Shown: piece by piece, positions 21,823 to 49,633 of the stretch
How the letters are laid out: each line of letters opens with the position of its first letter
Position numbering within the stretch: position 1 is the stretch's first letter
Source of the DNA: Methanomassiliicoccus sp.
Lineage (GTDB): Archaea; Thermoplasmatota; Thermoplasmata; Methanomassiliicoccales; Methanomassiliicoccaceae
DNA length: 64,000 nucleotides
NCBI GenBank assembly: GCA_012719175.1
Contig: JAAYAX010000014.1
Location: 124,001 to 188,000, forward strand
Direction: 5' to 3'
Translations under genes and position numbers: made by a program
Notes under the pieces: model-generated
What the model was told of the DNA's origin: nothing
Databases searched by the model: none
Seen by the model: only the letters and a program-made list of their open reading frames with translations

Positions 21823-22977
21823 TCATAGCTTTGCGAGGGCCTCTTTTATCCTGGTCATGCCCTTCGTTATGTCCTCGCGAGAGCAGGCGTATGATATCCT
21901 GAAGTGTCCTTCCCCCGAGGGACCGAATGCAGCGCCGGGCGTGACCGCGACATGGGCCTTGTCCAGAAGATAGGCGGCCATATCTTCGGAGCTCATCTTG
22001 TGATCGTACGAGGGGAATAGATAGAAAGCTCCCTTCGGCTCGGGACAATGCAATGACGGTATGTCCCTGATCAGGGACATTATTAGGTCCTTACGAGCCC
22101 GGAACTCATCGACCATCATTTCCACTGAATCCTGAGGACCTTTAAGTGCCTCCACGCCCGCCTTCTGCACGAATGATGTAACGCAGGTGAGGGAGTGGGT
22201 CTGCAGAGTGTTCAATCCCTTTATATATTCCAGGGGAGCAATGGCCCAGCCTAGTCTCCAGCCAGTCATGGCATAGGTCTTGGACAGGCCGTTGACGGTG
22301 ATGGTCCTCTCGAACATGCCGTCGAGTGAGGCGATGGAGTGGTGCTTCTCTCCGAAGATTACCTTCCAATAGACCTCATCGCTCAGCACCCGCAGGTCGT
22401 GGTCCTTGGCCAGGTCAGCAATTCCCTTGATATCGTCGAACGTGAGCACGGAGCCGGTCGGGTTCGCCGGGGAGTTCAGGAGTACCATCTTAGTACGGGG
22501 ACCGATGCACTCGACCACCTTCTCCGGGGTCATTCGGTAATCGCTCTCCGCTTCCAGGGGCACATAGCGAGGTATCCCGCCTGCCAGACGGACGCATGCG
22601 TCATACGTCCCCCAAGTTGGGTCGGGCAATATGACCTCATCACCGTCATCGAGCATGGCGAGCATCGATAGGAATATCGCTTGCTTGGTGGGAGTGATTA
22701 TGACGTTGGCCTCGGTACAGGGTATGCCGTTCTCCTTACGCGTCCTCTCCGCCACGGCTTTTCGCAGCTCGGGGATGCCTGCCGATGGAGTGTAGTGTGT
22801 GAAGTGATCGTGGATGGAGCTGATGCACGCCTCGTTGATGTTCTCGGGAGTTGGGAAATCAGGTTCACCCATGGAGAAGGAGACCACGTCCGCGCCCTCC
22901 TGCTTAAGCCTGCTAACGATATTGGCGATCTTTACGGTACCGGATTCGGGCACGTTGCTGAGGCGCCTTGAAAGCAT
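21823..22977 (-). CDS. Class I/II PLP aminotransferase, aspartate-type
   Basis: This 384-residue fold-type I aminotransferase shows SMGEPDFPTP near 36-45, the NPTGS motif near 167-171, the PLP lysine in TVNGLSKTYAMTGWRLGW near 228-245, and a C-terminal arginine in HFRISYA for the alpha-carboxylate. Substrate is probably aspartate or another amino acid; the group is not separable by eye. A TATA box at 23001-23011 gives a leaderless start at 22977. Confidence 0.92.
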   Translation of the reverse strand: MLSRRLSNVPESGTVKIANIVSRLKQEGADVVSFSMGEPDFPTPENINEACISSIHDHFTHYTPSAGIPELRKAVAERTRKENGIPCTEANVIITPTKQAIFLSMLAMLDDGDEVILPDPTWGTYDACVRLAGGIPRYVPLEAESDYRMTPEKVVECIGPRTKMVLLNSPANPTGSVLTFDDIKGIADLAKDHDLRVLSDEVYWKVIFGEKHHSIASLDGMFERTITVNGLSKTYAMTGWRLGWAIAPLEYIKGLNTLQTHSLTCVTSFVQKAGVEALKGPQDSVEMMVDEFRARKDLIMSLIRDIPSLHCPEPKGAFYLFPSYDHKMSSEDMAAYLLDKAHVAVTPGAAFGPSGEGHFRISYACSREDITKGMTRIKEALAKL

Positions 22978-42602: not shown

Positions 42603-43698
42603 AGGCGGCGTGACATTTCCACGGCCACCTCCTTGATGCTACTGCCTTGTTTCACCATACGGCACATAAGCTCCGCCACGCTTCCACCCTCCATTCGCCC
42701 CTCGATCAGAGGCAAGTGGTGCAGCTCCTCGGCGGTGGCACTAGCCTCGGACTTGGCGAGGAGATGCCGAAGCTCCGCCCGGCAGGACTCAGTACCGCGA
42801 TGGATCGCCTCTTCGGTCATCTCATATAGCACGTAATGGTCCTTCTCCAAACTTAGGTCAGCACGCAGATGGGTGAGGACGAAGGCCGTCAGCGCCATGT
42901 CCGAGCGCAGGCACTCCTGCTCGTCCACCACCTTGAGCTCCAGGCATTCACGGTGACGATGTATGATGACCCCTCGAGAGTCTACCCCCTCGTGGCATAG
43001 TTCCTCTCCCACCACCGCCCGTAGGTCCTTGTATACTGACTCAAGGATGTCCTCGTGGTCCTTCCAGTTTTCCAGGCGCTCAGGGACTAGGCCGTTACAT
43101 ACCTAAGGAACCCAGGATTGGTTCTCCCTGTAGAACAGCTGGCGGTTGTCCATGGTGCCAGTGAAACGGCCCTCCACGGACAGAGAGGATGCGGTGACCG
43201 CGACCAGGAACGGGATGAGTGCGCGGAGACTGTCGAACATACGGACCATCCTCTCCTTGCTCCTGTAATGGACATTGACCTGCAAGGCCTGAATGTTCAA
43301 CCAGCCGTGCTGCCTCAGGCCGAAGACGCTGTCGTATGCATCGTATATCACCTTGTCCTCAGGACCCCACACCGCCGTCTGGTCTAATGTCAACGGGGAG
43401 CGCGTGCCCAGACCCAGAAGGCAGTTGCTGTGCCCCATGGCATTATTAAAACGCATCATTCCATCGTAGAGCGCATTCTCCAAGCTGCTATACTTGTTTG
43501 AGGGGCGGAGGGAACGAATTCAATGACATGCCTCTGCAGCTCCTTGCTGATGTTCATAGCCTCGAAGCTGAACTCTTTGACGACCTCGCCGTGCATACCC
43601 TGGATGATGTTGTCGACAATGGGAAGGGGGCGCAGATCGGTGGTGTTCACCGAGTACTCATGTTCCGTTCCGACGGTCGTTGGATAACACCTCGTCAA
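42581..43698 (-). pseudogene. Glutamate-cysteine-ligase-like gene (GCS2/YbdK type) with a frameshift and an in-frame amber codon
   Basis: Three pieces of one protein lie in order. The first (43698 to about 43506) begins near VGTEHEYS and reads to FVPSAP. A one-base change in a C-run (complement of 43502-43506) then moves the frame, and SNKYSSLENALYDGMMRFNN continues it. An in-frame TAG at 43103-43105 follows NQSWVP, and the same frame runs on through NGLVPERLENWKDHEDI to a TGA at 42581. The joined length, about 372 residues, suits a full YbdK-type carboxylate-amine ligase. With two lesions it is best read as a pseudogene. A sequence error plus pyrrolysine readthrough is the alternative. Confidence 0.75.
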
Positions 43699-44173
43699 GA
43701 GGGTATTCCGCGACCTTTACGGTCTCCGGCCCTTCCACCCTGCACACGCTCTCCAGCTCCTCTGGGGGCAGGGATCTGATAAGCTGCAGGATGTTCTGAA
43801 CGGCCAGTTCGAGCTGCTCGTCGTAGACCGCACGGTTGCTCTTGAGGAACGCTACCAGATCGCAGATGCGCTCCTTCTTGAGATATATCTCCAGTTTCCC
43901 GTTGCATATGTCGAAGGTGAAGGGGCCGGCCACACATGTCTCCGGTTTTACCTGCTGGATACGGCAGCGTCCATCCTTGTAACCGATACAGAAGCCTGTG
44001 GACTTGCAGTCCAGCATGCGATGCTCACGGAACAGGATGTCATCGAACGTCATACCGTTCTCCAAAAGGATGGAGATCCGTTCCTCGGTCAAGGGCGGTT
44101 TTGCGTAATAGCAGCATCTTCCACCGCACTTGTCACAGATCTTGGTCAGCAGGTCCATGGTCATCTGGTTCAT
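43658..44173 (-). CDS. YkgJ-family cysteine-cluster protein
   Basis: This 171-residue protein has the YkgJ arrangement of cysteines (CDKCGGRCCYYAKPPLTEE near 13-31, DCKSTGFCIGYKDGRCRI near 54-71, then TCVAGPFTFDI). It is thought to hold zinc or an iron-sulfur cluster. The C-terminal third is helical. Its end overlaps the beginning of the glutamate-cysteine-ligase-like remnant by about 40 bases, implying that the two were once an operon. A TATA box (CCTTTAAAGG, 44183-44192) lies close enough that one of the internal ATGs (44164 or 44158) may be the true start. Confidence 0.85.
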   Translation of the reverse strand: MNQMTMDLLTKICDKCGGRCCYYAKPPLTEERISILLENGMTFDDILFREHRMLDCKSTGFCIGYKDGRCRIQQVKPETCVAGPFTFDICNGKLEIYLKKERICDLVAFLKSNRAVYDEQLELAVQNILQLIRSLPPEELESVCRVEGPETVKVAEYPLDEVLSNDRRNGT

Positions 44174-44391: not shown

Positions 44392-45153
44392 TTATAGCGA
44401 TCCACTGGGAAGAACGGTCCGCTCCGGAGGTCTGTTCCCTGGCCCTCTCATGATATCCCTGAGAAGGTCCCGCCACGCATCCAGTTCCTCGTCCATGCGG
44501 CCGGTTATCTTGACCATCTCCGCCACGTACTCGGTGTGGAACTTCTCCCTGAACTTATCCACCTCCGTATTCTCCTCTGCCGGAGGGTTCCAGCTCTCGA
44601 AGAGCAGTGAGGTCATGGCTACATCCGCCAGATAGTCCCCGCGCACCGCTCCTCCCCACCTGAATATTATGGGGCCGTCGATGGACACCAGGATGTTGTA
44701 CGGCATGTACGCCATATGACAGGTCCAATCTCCACCTGGCATCCGCGCCAGCCTTTTCCGCAAGTTCTCCTTCCCGCCATCGTCCAGATCCTCCCGGTCG
44801 GATATCAGCTCGTTTAGTTGGTCCTTGATAGAGGGGAGCTCATGGATCTTGTGCATATAGATCTCGTGCTGCGTGTAGGCGAAGAAGAGCGCAAGTCTGT
44901 GGTGCCAGGTGGGGTTGTCGATTATCCACTTAGTGTACGTCGGACCCAACACCGTATCGAGCACCAGCCCCAGCCTTCCGTCGATCTCCTCAATATCGTG
45001 AACGAAGGGCGTTTCCATTCCATATTGCCTCATCAGCAGGATGGTGTCCCTCTCATTCTCTACCACAGAACGAGGGGTCCCCACCGGGAAGAGCATGGCC
45101 ACCTTGTTACCGCCCACATCTCTTAGCTCGTAATCTCGTCCTTCCCAGAACAT
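44392..45153 (-). CDS. Aminoglycoside-phosphotransferase-fold protein, apparently catalytically dead
   Basis: This 253-residue protein aligns with APH-fold kinases: MHKIHELPSIKDQLNELI near 100-117 (usual IHSLP-type helix), ARMPGGDWTCHMAYMPYNIL near 136-155, and RWGGAVRGDYLADVAMTSLL near 165-184. Active members have HGD at the catalytic site and IDW at the metal site. Here these read HMA (146-148) and FRW (164-166), so both aspartates are lost while N153 and the GD-LAD helix remain. It is therefore predicted to bind or scaffold rather than phosphorylate. It lies upstream of the YkgJ gene on the same strand. Confidence 0.8.
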   Translation of the reverse strand: MFWEGRDYELRDVGGNKVAMLFPVGTPRSVVENERDTILLMRQYGMETPFVHDIEEIDGRLGLVLDTVLGPTYTKWIIDNPTWHHRLALFFAYTQHEIYMHKIHELPSIKDQLNELISDREDLDDGGKENLRKRLARMPGGDWTCHMAYMPYNILVSIDGPIIFRWGGAVRGDYLADVAMTSLLFESWNPPAEENTEVDKFREKFHTEYVAEMVKITGRMDEELDAWRDLLRDIMRGPGNRPPERTVLPSGSL

Positions 45154-45385: not shown

Positions 45386-45970
45386 TCACACATCCTCTTG
45401 CCGCCCTACTCCTCTAACCATGTCCTCGTCGTTCCCTTCACCTCCGCGCTGGAAGGGACGCCTCCAGACGGAAACCGCGCCTCCTACCAAGGCCGTCGCC
45501 GCGAGGGCCAGAAGGGCAATGGCTGCCATGGTGACCGCATCCAGAGATACCATCGGCGGGGCCCTCATGCCCTCCCCGCTTGAGGGGTCGTATGAGGAGT
45601 CCTGATAGGCCTCGCTCCATTGGGTGGAAGGACCTGAGAAGGCCGCAAGATAAATAACGACGATCATCGCCAACAAGCACACCAAGCTCGAAGATATCAG
45701 GATCACTATCTTCGTGCGGTCATTAGGATTGAGTATATCGCGGGACTTCCAGGTCAAGGCATAGTATATGAAGCCGTGGTCCTCGGTCCGTGAGACGAAG
45801 CCACCCTCCTCGAGCTTCTTGAGGTGGCGATGGACCGCGGCCTTGTCTATGCCCAGCAGATCAGCTAGTTGGGAAACGGTCCTGCGGTTGGTCTCCAGCG
45901 CTTTCAATATCTCCAGCCGAGTATCGGAGGCTAGGGCGAACAGGGAGCGCCGGTCTAGCTCCACCTTCAT
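45386..45970 (-). CDS. Membrane-anchored winged-helix transcription regulator
   Basis: This 194-residue protein begins with an ArsR-like winged helix at about 5-80: RSLFALASDTRLEILKALET, recognition helix region LADLLGIDKAAVHRHLKKLE and wing GGFVSRTEDHGFIYYALT. One membrane helix follows near 92-113 (IVILISSSLVCLLAMIVVIY). An extracytoplasmic loop of about 45 residues comes next, then a second helix near 145-167 (AVTMAAIALLALAATALVGG) and a basic tail. I chose the ATG at 45970 at the domain boundary. The gene follows a secreted beta-propeller gene by 49 bases and is probably co-transcribed. A one-component membrane sensor is the likely role. Confidence 0.85.
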   Translation of the reverse strand: MKVELDRRSLFALASDTRLEILKALETNRRTVSQLADLLGIDKAAVHRHLKKLEEGGFVSRTEDHGFIYYALTWKSRDILNPNDRTKIVILISSSLVCLLAMIVVIYLAAFSGPSTQWSEAYQDSSYDPSSGEGMRAPPMVSLDAVTMAAIALLALAATALVGGAVSVWRRPFQRGGEGNDEDMVRGVGRQEDV

Positions 45971-46019
45971 CGCATTACCCTGGAGGGAATGGACTTCCGG
46001 GGCCTTGAACCCTGGTGCC

Positions 46020-47798
46020 TCATGCCATCCTCGTGGCGTACCCGACATAGTAATCCTGCCCCTCGCTATAAGATAGAGAACTTAGAGAGGTAAGGGACGG
46101 GAGAGAGTTGGCCTTGACCGTGGTATCGGAGATCGTGTAAAGGACATCGTTTATGTACAGGGAGCGGGTGACCGTAGCATCTTTGTGGGTTATCGCCCCC
46201 ACTTGATCTATCCCGCTCTCGCCGATCTCCAGGACCAATCCTACAGACCAAGGCCGCTGGTAGGTCCAGTACTCTACCCCTCCGGTGCTGGTGTAGAAGG
46301 TCACGGGGATGACCAGGAACTTTCTGACGGGATCGTAGAGCACCGCCCGGTGGTCGTATTGCGCAGCTGAGTAGGAGCAGCCCTCGACCAGATAGGTATC
46401 CACCTCCACCAAGTGCCCGGGGTCGCTTACGTTGTACAGGGAGACTTTCGCCGAACCGTTCTCGAAGCCTATGCCTAATAGGCCGAATTCCACCATCTGC
46501 AGGTAGGTCGAAGCCCCCGGTACCTTCAGCTCACCAAGCACCATAGGGTCGTCATCTGCCAGGTCGATAACGAATAGCGGGTCGACCTGCTTGAATGTCA
46601 CCAGATAAAGTCGGTCGCCTAGGTAGCGGGAGGAATAGATGCTCTCTCCCGGAGCGATACCTTCGAGGGAGCCTATCTCCTTGAGGTCCATATCCAGGAT
46701 GTGGACCTGATTGTCGGTCTCCCCGTCAGAGGTGGTGGTGGCCATGCGCAGCCTCCCGTCCCTCTCGTCCAGGGCGAACTGGTTGAGAGGCCCTCCCTCA
46801 ACGGACCCCTGGGCGGCGAGGGTCATCCGGGTCCCGTCGACCGCGATCCGATAGACCGTGGTGGTGAGCGAGCCCTGTGCAGCAGTGAACAGGCTGGAGG
46901 AAGAACCCTCCCACCTTGGCATGGTGAGGTACAGGGAGGTGAGGGACATGTAGCACATCGAGGAGGGACTTGCCAGGGCCGTGAGGTTAGCCCTGCTCCC
47001 GTCGCCAACGTCTAAGGCCAGAACATTCACAAAAGAGGACACAGATGGGCAAGCAGGATCATAACAGACGGAGGTCGATGCCACGACCTCAGCGCCGCTA
47101 TCGTTCAGGACCTGCGGTACGGCAATGCTATCTCCAGACCACACGCTCTGCTCAGTAAGAAGATATACGACGCTGCCCACCATCCTGGAGGATATCTGGA
47201 GACCGGTGATGCCACCTGATAACACCTTGGTGGGGTTGGAGGGATCGCTCACATCGTAGATCTGGATACATGTTCGAGAGGAATAGTAGGTGTAAAACTG
47301 ATGTGATGAGAGGATATCCACTCCCGGAGATGAGCTGCCTGAAGGGGCGGTCGAGTACTCATATACGGAATATATGACCACCAGGCGATCCTCGTAGAGG
47401 TAGAGGCCCTGAACGCTAACATTGGCGCCGCTTCCGATCTCGACCTTGGAGATGTTCGATAAGGAAGGCTGGGTGGCCATCAGATGCACCTTGTTCTGTT
47501 CTGCCACGAACAGTGTCCTCCCGTCGGTCTTGACCAGGTCGCTCTCATCGACACCATCGACCTGCACGTTCGTCCGTGAATAGGAGCTAGATGCTGCCGT
47601 GTCCACCCCAATCATGGCTTCTTGCCGCCCCGAACCCTGCTCTTCGACGTGAGTGGTGATGAAATACCGCATCTCTGCGTCCGTTGTGAAGTGGGCAAGC
47701 TCGCTGGGTCGGACCGGCTGGCTCGAATAGGAGACCGCGAGACCGGACAACAGGAAGGCCGTCACTAAGGCTATTGACAGCACAGGCAGGGGTTTCAT
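46020..47798 (-). CDS. Secreted beta-propeller protein (COG4880-like)
   Basis: This 592-residue protein has a signal peptide (LPVLSIALVTAFLLSGLAVS near 4-23). A long C-terminal part made of beta-propeller blades follows (for example VDESDLVKTDGRTLFVAEQN near 83-102, HILDMDLKEIGSL, and PLFVIDLADDDPMVLGEL). It matches the archaeal secreted proteins with a C-terminal beta-propeller of unknown role. There is no C-terminal membrane anchor, so it may be free or lipid-linked. It begins at a leaderless ATG 27 bases from a TATA box, just behind a 22-bp palindrome. Confidence 0.88.
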   Translation of the reverse strand: MKPLPVLSIALVTAFLLSGLAVSYSSQPVRPSELAHFTTDAEMRYFITTHVEEQGSGRQEAMIGVDTAASSSYSRTNVQVDGVDESDLVKTDGRTLFVAEQNKVHLMATQPSLSNISKVEIGSGANVSVQGLYLYEDRLVVIYSVYEYSTAPSGSSSPGVDILSSHQFYTYYSSRTCIQIYDVSDPSNPTKVLSGGITGLQISSRMVGSVVYLLTEQSVWSGDSIAVPQVLNDSGAEVVASTSVCYDPACPSVSSFVNVLALDVGDGSRANLTALASPSSMCYMSLTSLYLTMPRWEGSSSSLFTAAQGSLTTTVYRIAVDGTRMTLAAQGSVEGGPLNQFALDERDGRLRMATTTSDGETDNQVHILDMDLKEIGSLEGIAPGESIYSSRYLGDRLYLVTFKQVDPLFVIDLADDDPMVLGELKVPGASTYLQMVEFGLLGIGFENGSAKVSLYNVSDPGHLVEVDTYLVEGCSYSAAQYDHRAVLYDPVRKFLVIPVTFYTSTGGVEYWTYQRPWSVGLVLEIGESGIDQVGAITHKDATVTRSLYINDVLYTISDTTVKANSLPSLTSLSSLSYSEGQDYYVGYATRMA

Positions 47799-47820
47799 CG
47801 CCGTGAAATTCCCCGGCCTC

Positions 47821-47830
47821 CTATTAAACC
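47821..47830 (-). promoter_or_regulatory. TATA box of the beta-propeller/regulator operon
   Basis: GGTTTAATAG is centred 27 bases before the ATG at 47798, so the message is leaderless. Confidence 0.6.
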
Positions 47831-47838
47831 CTCTTTTC

Positions 47839-47860
47839 TCGTTGACTAATTCGTCAACGA
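47839..47860. promoter_or_regulatory. 22-bp palindromic operator in the divergent promoter region
   Basis: TCGTTGAC and GTCAACGA flank TAATTC, a perfect 8-bp inverted repeat. It begins eight bases upstream of the TATA box of the beta-propeller gene, touching its BRE position. It is the natural candidate binding site for the winged-helix regulator in that operon. Confidence 0.6.
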
Positions 47861-47977: not shown

Positions 47978-49633
47978 GTGCGGCAGAGAATCAAAAAACT
48001 ACTTACGTTGATGGTGTGCCTCAGCATGTCGGTCCCCATCTTGGGGATCCTCCCGACCTCGGTGGGGGCTGCCGAGACCCAGGTCATTCTCTCCGATGAT
48101 TTCGAGGGACGGTTTCCCGGGGAGTGGTCGCGAGGCGACCGCAACGAAGCTTCAGACCAGGACTACTGGGGCACCACTCGATACACCTCCGTGTCCTCAT
48201 CCCAATCCGTGTACTGTGCGGCCATAGGCGAGAACTCCCAGTACGATGGGGCCTCCAATGTCGACATCAAGGGTATAGGCGACCCCTTCTGGGCCTCCCC
48301 CTCCGACTATACTCTGAACTACGATACCAACATGGACTCCTATATGGCACGAGAGTTGGAAGCGGATGAAGGCTTAACATCAATGACACTGAGTTTCAGC
48401 TACTGGGCCATGACCGGAAGCTCCCAGACAAGCCTAGGTGATGATTATCTGTGGGTATCAGCGACGACCTCCATCGACCGCAGCCCAGACCTGACCGCCT
48501 TCAATGAGGTATGGAGGCAGACCGCATCCGATTCTTCAGGATGGAGATCGGTGACCGTCGAGCTGCCCCAAGGCACCACATGGATAAGCATAAATTTCCG
48601 CTCCGGCCCCGTGACCCCCGAGGGAGGTCCATACATCGGAGCGTACGTGGACGACGTCCAGGTGGAGGCCGAGGAGATGTCGGAGGTCTTCTCTCACATA
48701 ACTGATCTCCCGGCATCCACCAACCAGACCTCCTTCTCCTTCTCCGTCGTCGTGGAAGGTGATGTGGACCAGTGGACGAAAGTTGAAATATATTACCGGA
48801 TCAACGGGATCGGCGATTTTAAACAATACACCACCGCCTCCAATCCCATGGGCCGGTGGGAGGTGGGGACCATCACGTTCCATACGATGGGCAACGGTCA
48901 ATACGAGCTGTTCTCCCGAGCGTACAATGGCCTGTGGAGCAGAGAGCCGATAAAGTCCTCTGCCGATGCCACCATAATCGTCGATACCGTCCCCCCGGCC
49001 GCTACCCATGCGATATCAGGCACATTGTCCAGTGGCGGCTGGTACTCCTCCGCGGTAAGAGTGTTCATAAACGCCACCGACGACAGAAGCGGGATCCTGT
49101 CCATCAGCTACCGCTGGGATGGTGGCCAGTGGGCCCAGTACCGTGGGCCAGTGACCATGGAGGAGGATGGTGACCATGTCCTGCAGTACTATGCCACCGA
49201 CTATGCCGGGAACTCGCAAGCGGTGCGCACCGTCTCCAACATCCGGCTCGACCGCCTGGGACCCACGGTGACCTTCGAGGCCACCCAAGGGTGCAACTTC
49301 CCCCATGGAGATATCACCATAGGCTTCGATCTCTCAGACCTGGCCTCGGGCATCAGTAATATTGGATACAGCGTTGACGGGGGTATGGTCATATCCCTGC
49401 CGGGGTCCGTTCGCCAGATCACCTTGACGGGGCTAGGCGTGGGCTCTCACAGCATCGTGCTGACGGCGCGGGACGGGGTCGGCAATCCCTCCCAGACCCT
49501 GCTGCAGTTCACCGTGGGAGATGCGGCGGAGGACGATCCCGTGGTGGGAACGGCGCTGACAGTGGCTATGCTGGCAGTGATCGCCTTCCCCTTGGCGGGG
49601 GCTGCCATAATGCTCTCCCGACGCAAGAGCTAA
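47978..49633 (+). CDS. Surface protein with MAM-like and Ig-like domains
   Basis: This 551-residue protein starts with a signal peptide (IKKLLTLMVCLSMSVPILGI near 5-24). It then has a jelly-roll domain (VILSDDFEGRFPGEWSRGD near 36-54, ending YIGAYVDDVQVEAEE near 227), a pattern seen in immune-inhibitor-A-like and MAM domains. Two or three Ig-like repeats follow (VDTVPPAATHAISG, LDRLGPTVTFEATQ). It ends in a membrane anchor (VGTALTVAMLAVIAFPLAGA) and a basic SRRKS tail. It is divergent from the beta-propeller operon. Probably a cell-surface or S-layer-associated protein. Confidence 0.85.
   Translation: MRQRIKKLLTLMVCLSMSVPILGILPTSVGAAETQVILSDDFEGRFPGEWSRGDRNEASDQDYWGTTRYTSVSSSQSVYCAAIGENSQYDGASNVDIKGIGDPFWASPSDYTLNYDTNMDSYMARELEADEGLTSMTLSFSYWAMTGSSQTSLGDDYLWVSATTSIDRSPDLTAFNEVWRQTASDSSGWRSVTVELPQGTTWISINFRSGPVTPEGGPYIGAYVDDVQVEAEEMSEVFSHITDLPASTNQTSFSFSVVVEGDVDQWTKVEIYYRINGIGDFKQYTTASNPMGRWEVGTITFHTMGNGQYELFSRAYNGLWSREPIKSSADATIIVDTVPPAATHAISGTLSSGGWYSSAVRVFINATDDRSGILSISYRWDGGQWAQYRGPVTMEEDGDHVLQYYATDYAGNSQAVRTVSNIRLDRLGPTVTFEATQGCNFPHGDITIGFDLSDLASGISNIGYSVDGGMVISLPGSVRQITLTGLGVGSHSIVLTARDGVGNPSQTLLQFTVGDAAEDDPVVGTALTVAMLAVIAFPLAGAAIMLSRRKS

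Follow-up and report, generated by a model that had tools for sequence, protein, structure and literature searches.

A membrane-anchored winged-helix regulator, an exported beta-propeller and a conserved promoter palindrome in Methanomassiliicoccales

What might a DNA-binding protein with two membrane helices control when its gene shares an operon with that of an exported beta-propeller protein, and a palindrome lies just upstream of the operon's TATA-like box? This question is raised by positions 45386-47860 of a 64,000-nucleotide stretch of Methanomassiliicoccus sp. DNA (contig JAAYAX010000014.1; hereafter the window). Comparison among genomes establishes, at the level of sequence, the architecture of the unit, the pairing of the two genes, the conservation of the operator and of its position, and the persistence of that operator with regulators that have no propeller beside them. 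The reading that we favour, with moderate confidence, is a self-contained autoregulatory surface circuit in which the regulator would activate its own operon from the membrane.

The operon and its promoter site

Both genes are on the minus strand, the propeller gene being first (46020-47798, 592 residues) and the regulator gene second (45386-46048, 220 residues when counted from the first ATG). The regulator open reading frame (ORF) overlaps that of the propeller by 29 bp; its conserved part begins near Met27, which suggests that the true start is this methionine, at about 45970. The first-pass annotation, made from the sequence alone, had described an operon of a secreted beta-propeller and a DNA-binding protein with two membrane helices, and profile matches to PF09826 and HTH_5, together with the hydrophobic helices, confirm that description.

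PF09826 (Beta_propel) covers propeller residues 73-567 (E = 1.7e-126, 423.5 bits against a cut-off of 22.4, profile positions 1-493 of 495). The predicted structure (mean predicted local distance difference test score, pLDDT, 80; predicted template modelling score, pTM, 0.80) is an all-beta model with a beta-propeller fold and a hydrophobic N-terminal helix at residues 5-24, from which export is predicted. A fold search of the PDB with this model returned many generic WD40-type propellers at low TM-scores (0.2-0.3), and a sequence search for a solved structural relative found none. Literature searches on COG4880, PF09826 and secreted archaeal propellers gave nothing useful, and no functional study of PF09826 was found.

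The regulator matches HTH_5/ArsR (PF01022) at residues 42-86 (E = 1.8e-14, 53.8 bits against a cut-off of 22). Its topology was judged by hydropathy in place of a topology predictor, with hydrophobic helices at residues 114-132 and 174-192. The predicted structure places a winged helix-turn-helix at residues 33-106 (45731-45952, minus strand; pLDDT 76-85 over residues 41-100), a first transmembrane helix at 108-136 (45641-45727, minus), a disordered and presumably outside loop at 137-170 (45539-45640, minus) and a second transmembrane helix at 171-196 (45461-45538, minus). Nearly all homologues have two hydrophobic helices by hydropathy; a single helix was called only at L007, which lies at a contig end, and at L020. 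Mean column identity among homologues is 0.84 in the winged helix, 0.77 in the linker, 0.50 in the first helix, 0.29 in the loop, 0.41 in the second helix and 0.66 in the stretch that follows it, where P198 and Q200 of a conserved P198-x-Q200 are invariant. Searched for a metal-sensor motif, residues 33-106 hold no Cys and the alignment (A1) no invariant Cys, and the regulator misses the NCBIfam metalloregulator cut-off (50.9 against 55 bits). A defence or phage origin was rejected, since PADLOC and PHROGs matched only the generic winged helix.

The two genes travel together, as the first-pass annotation had proposed to check. Profile searches of 147 genomes of the order, which vary in completeness, found the propeller in 27 and the regulator in 27: both in 26, the regulator by itself in one (G015), a propeller by itself in one (G021, a fragment at a contig end) and neither in 119. 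Strong regulator matches also occur elsewhere in the class, in families f11, f62 and f63. When regulators were pooled over the class, 43 of 47 distinct core regulators stood directly behind a propeller and one more (L152/L226) overlapped it; another was cut by a contig end (L115) and two had no adjacent propeller, so that 44 of the 46 that could be judged follow the propeller directly. Outside the order, the 30 top-scoring PF09826 loci of the phylum have neither regulator nor motif alongside, and a general link between PF09826 and the regulator was rejected on this ground. Within the order, the large family f5 (about 100 genomes) gave no match for either protein, unlike many other families, and this is possibly a habitat pattern.

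The palindrome occupies 47839-47860 and reads TCGTTGAC-TAATTC-GTCAACGA, with a 6-bp spacer flanked by perfect arms of 8 bp each. It had been called a perfect 22-bp palindrome: the palindrome is real, and it is not perfect, since the outermost spacer pair (T/C) is mismatched and 20 of the 22 positions pair. Its core, GTTGAC-N6-GTCAAC, spans 47841-47858 and has no strand. On the promoter side, a TATA-like TTTAATA (47828-47822, minus strand; placed by sequence and by aligned homologous promoters) lies 12 bp from the core, and the propeller start codon lies 42 nt from it. Seen in the window alone, such a site could be due to chance, because the window holds 19 pairs of 8-bp arms with spacers of up to 10, and shuffled sequences hold 9-25. 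The same arm scan also picked up a spacer-free perfect 16-bp palindrome, GTCCCTGATCAGGGAC, at 22063-22078.

The significance of the operator comes instead from homologous promoters, which share it at the same place and reject chance. RTTGA(C/T)-N6-(G/A)TCAAC is present in 32 of 32 readable propeller promoters, so that the palindrome accompanies the operon wherever it could be looked for; 31 of these are distinct (L031 and L134 being the same genome), and they come from related genomes and are not independent events. The half-sites carry near 2 bits per position, except for the first base (G or A), and the spacer only 0.15-0.7 bits; the freedom of the spacer and the turnover of neighbouring genes point to selection on the arms despite this relatedness. 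Given that the genes co-occur and that every readable operon promoter has the palindrome, neither refuting condition named in the first-pass annotation applies. The TATA-like box follows roughly 11-16 bp after the core and the start codon mostly 42-51 nt after it, and in all 32 promoters the operator stays clear of both the TATA box and the start site. A search of Rfam found no known RNA element.

Genome-wide, RTTGACN6GTCAAY occurs exactly once in the window's own 2.42-Mb genome (G000) and once in each of G017, G018, G020 and G022. Some other genomes hold a few copies, which, where examined, are mostly inside ORFs. By these counts, the operator is dedicated to one promoter in most of the Methanomassiliicoccales genomes examined. 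A larger regulon in G000 was considered and rejected, as all seven sites with one mismatch fall inside long ORFs.

Ownership of the operator

Two genomes separate the regulator from the propeller. G015 is 99% complete and has no PF09826 anywhere, but its regulator gene is still immediately preceded by the palindrome and a TATA box. The same arrangement is found at L144, in an incomplete 1.1-Mb genome that also has no PF09826. The operator is thus found in the regulator's own promoter and kept with it, in the 32 operon promoters as in these two cases. Because both propeller-less regulators keep the site, the operator appears to belong to the regulator and not to the propeller, and the reading that best fits this association is autoregulation. 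The earlier proposal that the regulator acts on its own promoter gains indirect support from these two loci, and we infer DNA binding by the regulator at this site.

While the site stays, the genes upstream of it vary, with an OmpL47-domain gene in the window and MPG-like or ACT-like genes at other loci. The window neighbour is a divergent gene (47978-49633, plus strand) whose product, an exported protein of 551 residues, has beta domains of the OmpL47 type (NF047446, E = 5.4e-27); a homologue stands beside the operon in the close relatives G017 and G020 and in none of the other genera examined. Control of this surface gene as the main role of the site was rejected, since the neighbour is replaced in other genera and the site and operon remain. 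Downstream of the operon are a putative metal-chelating protein with CxxCxxCC (43658-44173, minus) and an APH-fold protein (44392-45153, minus); an ORF resembling the latter is also near the lone regulator of G015 (L160, 851-1558).

In the sister genomes G485, G484 and G486, the strict GTTGAC-N6-GTCAAC also precedes three other genes with the same promoter geometry. These sites, at L164 (1770), L165 (1795) and L166 (1759), are directly upstream of TATA boxes, and the genes encode an exported protein of 394 residues that no Pfam family matches, a BsuPI-like protein with a membrane anchor (E = 0.00027, narrowly missing the Pfam cut-off) and a NosD-like beta-helix protein. This suggests a small regulon of exported proteins in those genomes. 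Further strict sites at L163, L167, L168, L169, L170 and L171 are inside ORFs and were taken as chance.

A more distant group of two-helix winged-helix proteins (L214-L225, families f65, f20 and f13, about 75-90 bits) has no adjacent propeller and no such motif. Several f65 and f20 loci of this group have a transaldolase-like gene (KIFLDTAN...) nearby. In two f13 members, L220 and L221, a different palindrome, TCGTTCG-N8-CGAACGA, lies 55-77 bases ahead of the point where the conserved part of the regulator begins. It is closely followed by a TATA-like element, AAATA, which gives a hint that the wider regulator family may have the same operator layout.

Direction of control and the signal

We propose that the regulator acts on transcription as a one-component system, its two helices holding it in the cytoplasmic membrane. 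Its ArsR-type winged helix, lying in the cytoplasm, would bind GTTGAC-N6-GTCAAC as a dimer, just upstream of the region of its own operon that holds the transcription factor B (TFB) recognition element (BRE) and the TATA box. Once bound, it would most likely activate, by helping TFB and the TATA-binding protein (TBP) onto the promoter, and when switched on it would cause the exported propeller and the regulator to be produced together. We likewise infer the orientation in the membrane and the nature of the signal. The switch would probably be a change in the membrane or envelope that the helices pass on, or a proteolytic cut in the loop that sets the winged helix free, and probably not the binding of a specific ligand by the loop.

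Activation is favoured over repression by analogy, because the operator lies upstream of the BRE/TATA region, as at activated archaeal promoters, and we hold this to be probable while far from certain. At promoters that the TrmB-family regulators TrmBL1 and Tgr activate, their sites precede the BRE/TATA, and at those that they repress the sites follow it (PMC4158304); the CopR semi-palindrome immediately precedes the BRE in genes that are upregulated (PMC7830388). Several points weigh against the proposed circuit. The only argument for activation is the position of the site, and a repressor at the same position could also block the entry of TFB. The regulator could answer a cytoplasmic signal, its helices being only an anchor. 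The additional sites in the sister genomes number only three, and they were picked out by their match to the motif. Finally, the genome that contains L144 is small and incomplete, and a propeller could be unassembled elsewhere in it.

The alternative that survives best is autorepression, in which the membrane regulator, sitting on the palindrome, would block loading of TFB and TBP until an envelope signal releases the operon. Repression of the own operon is common among ArsR-family proteins, and the short distance from the site to the BRE would allow obstruction. However, the whole site precedes the TATA-like box, and such a placement is tied to activation in archaea (PMC4158304, PMC7830388); the absence of any overlap with the TATA box or start site in the 32 promoters speaks in the same direction. 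We therefore regard autorepression as a serious but rather unlikely explanation.

With regard to the signal, the first-pass annotation had suggested that the propeller or its ligand meets the loop. This was not supported: against an identity of 0.84 in the winged helix, the loop reaches only 0.29, and in the homologues it is 30-39 residues long, acidic, without Cys and with hardly any His, and predicted to be disordered at low structure confidence. Because the loop is unconserved, acidic and predicted disordered, no specific surface for a propeller or ligand is indicated, and a signal arriving through the membrane helices or through loop cleavage fits better than one bound by the loop. The propeller, or a ligand that it carries, might still be an extracellular co-sensor touching the loop, comparable to ToxS with ToxR; the near-obligate pairing of the genes in one operon and the export helix of the propeller would agree with this. 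We consider it unlikely, given a barely conserved loop with no shared motif, the retention of regulator and operator without a propeller in G015, and the best PF09826 loci elsewhere in the phylum, which do without the regulator.

Still less probable, as a complete explanation, is regulated proteolysis, in which an outside protease would cut the disordered loop and an intramembrane protease would free the winged helix, as for SREBP. SREBP has a similar layout of two helices and a short loop, and here too the helices are joined by a short, variable, acidic and predicted disordered loop; no cleavage motif is evident in the loops, however. Weakest of all, and in our judgement very improbable, is that the palindrome belongs to a different DNA-binding protein, the regulator being only a fellow member of the operon. 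Against this, PF09826 loci that lack the regulator also lack the site, which is present in the promoters of both regulators that have no propeller beside them.

Taken more broadly, the autoregulatory circuit could represent a one-promoter family of membrane regulators in Methanomassiliicoccales, in which the regulator, through an exact operator that typically occurs once per genome, would hold the locus at the membrane where the propeller is made, with a few exported targets added in sister lineages, and thus a dedicated archaeal envelope-response system. We offer this extension tentatively, as a possibility that we doubt more than we believe. For a whole regulator family, evolutionary comparison points to the likely operator, its position and its target, and one short DNA site makes binding, direction of control and signal directly testable. 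The unit would also be a first regulatory handle on PF09826, and its near single-copy operator raises the question of how a membrane-bound factor finds one site in a chromosome.

Comparison with known systems

The first-pass annotation knew of no named system of this form. For the whole unit this stands, as a literature search for a propeller-linked regulator unit found no paper, and the unit appears to be undescribed; for the regulator it does not, since its transmembrane one-component architecture is known from ArnR/ArnR1 (PMC6396743) and belongs to a surveyed class (PMC10269533). That class is the transmembrane transcription regulators (TTRs), some of which adjoin a ToxS/TcpH-like partner gene (PMC10269533). 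Like the TTRs ToxR and CadC (PMC10269533), the window regulator has in one chain a DNA-binding domain and at least one transmembrane segment, the latter predicted. What sets it apart from TTRs in general is a pair of helices, a loop that is short and unstructured, and an exported propeller as partner.

ArnR and ArnR1 of Sulfolobus acidocaldarius combine an N-terminal helix-turn-helix with two C-terminal transmembrane helices, and act through promoter boxes in the positive control of surface-structure genes (PMC6396743). The window regulator resembles them in its N-terminal helix-turn-helix and two C-terminal helices, a likeness drawn from architecture. Between its helix-turn-helix and the membrane, ArnR carries a putative HAMP and a sensing domain, whereas here the first helix (from residue 108) directly follows the winged helix. 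ArnR controls archaellum and pili genes and has no reported propeller partner, whereas here the target is the regulator's own operon. No control of archaellum or pilus genes was seen for the window regulator, the sole exact operator being at its own operon and the one-mismatch copies inside ORFs, although weaker sites are possible.

The winged helix matches PF01022, as in ArsR/SmtB proteins, from which the regulator differs by its added membrane helices and by the lack of Cys in the winged helix. Some ArsR-family operators are inverted repeats with a 6-bp spacer, as is the operator described here. The propeller is a clear PF09826 member, unlike the 30 best members of the phylum outside the order in having the regulator and operator alongside. 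In the placement of its site upstream of the BRE/TATA, the unit resembles the activated promoters of CopR and of TrmBL1 of Pyrococcus furiosus (PMC7830388, PMC4158304); these are different regulators, with several targets, and are not described there as membrane-bound.
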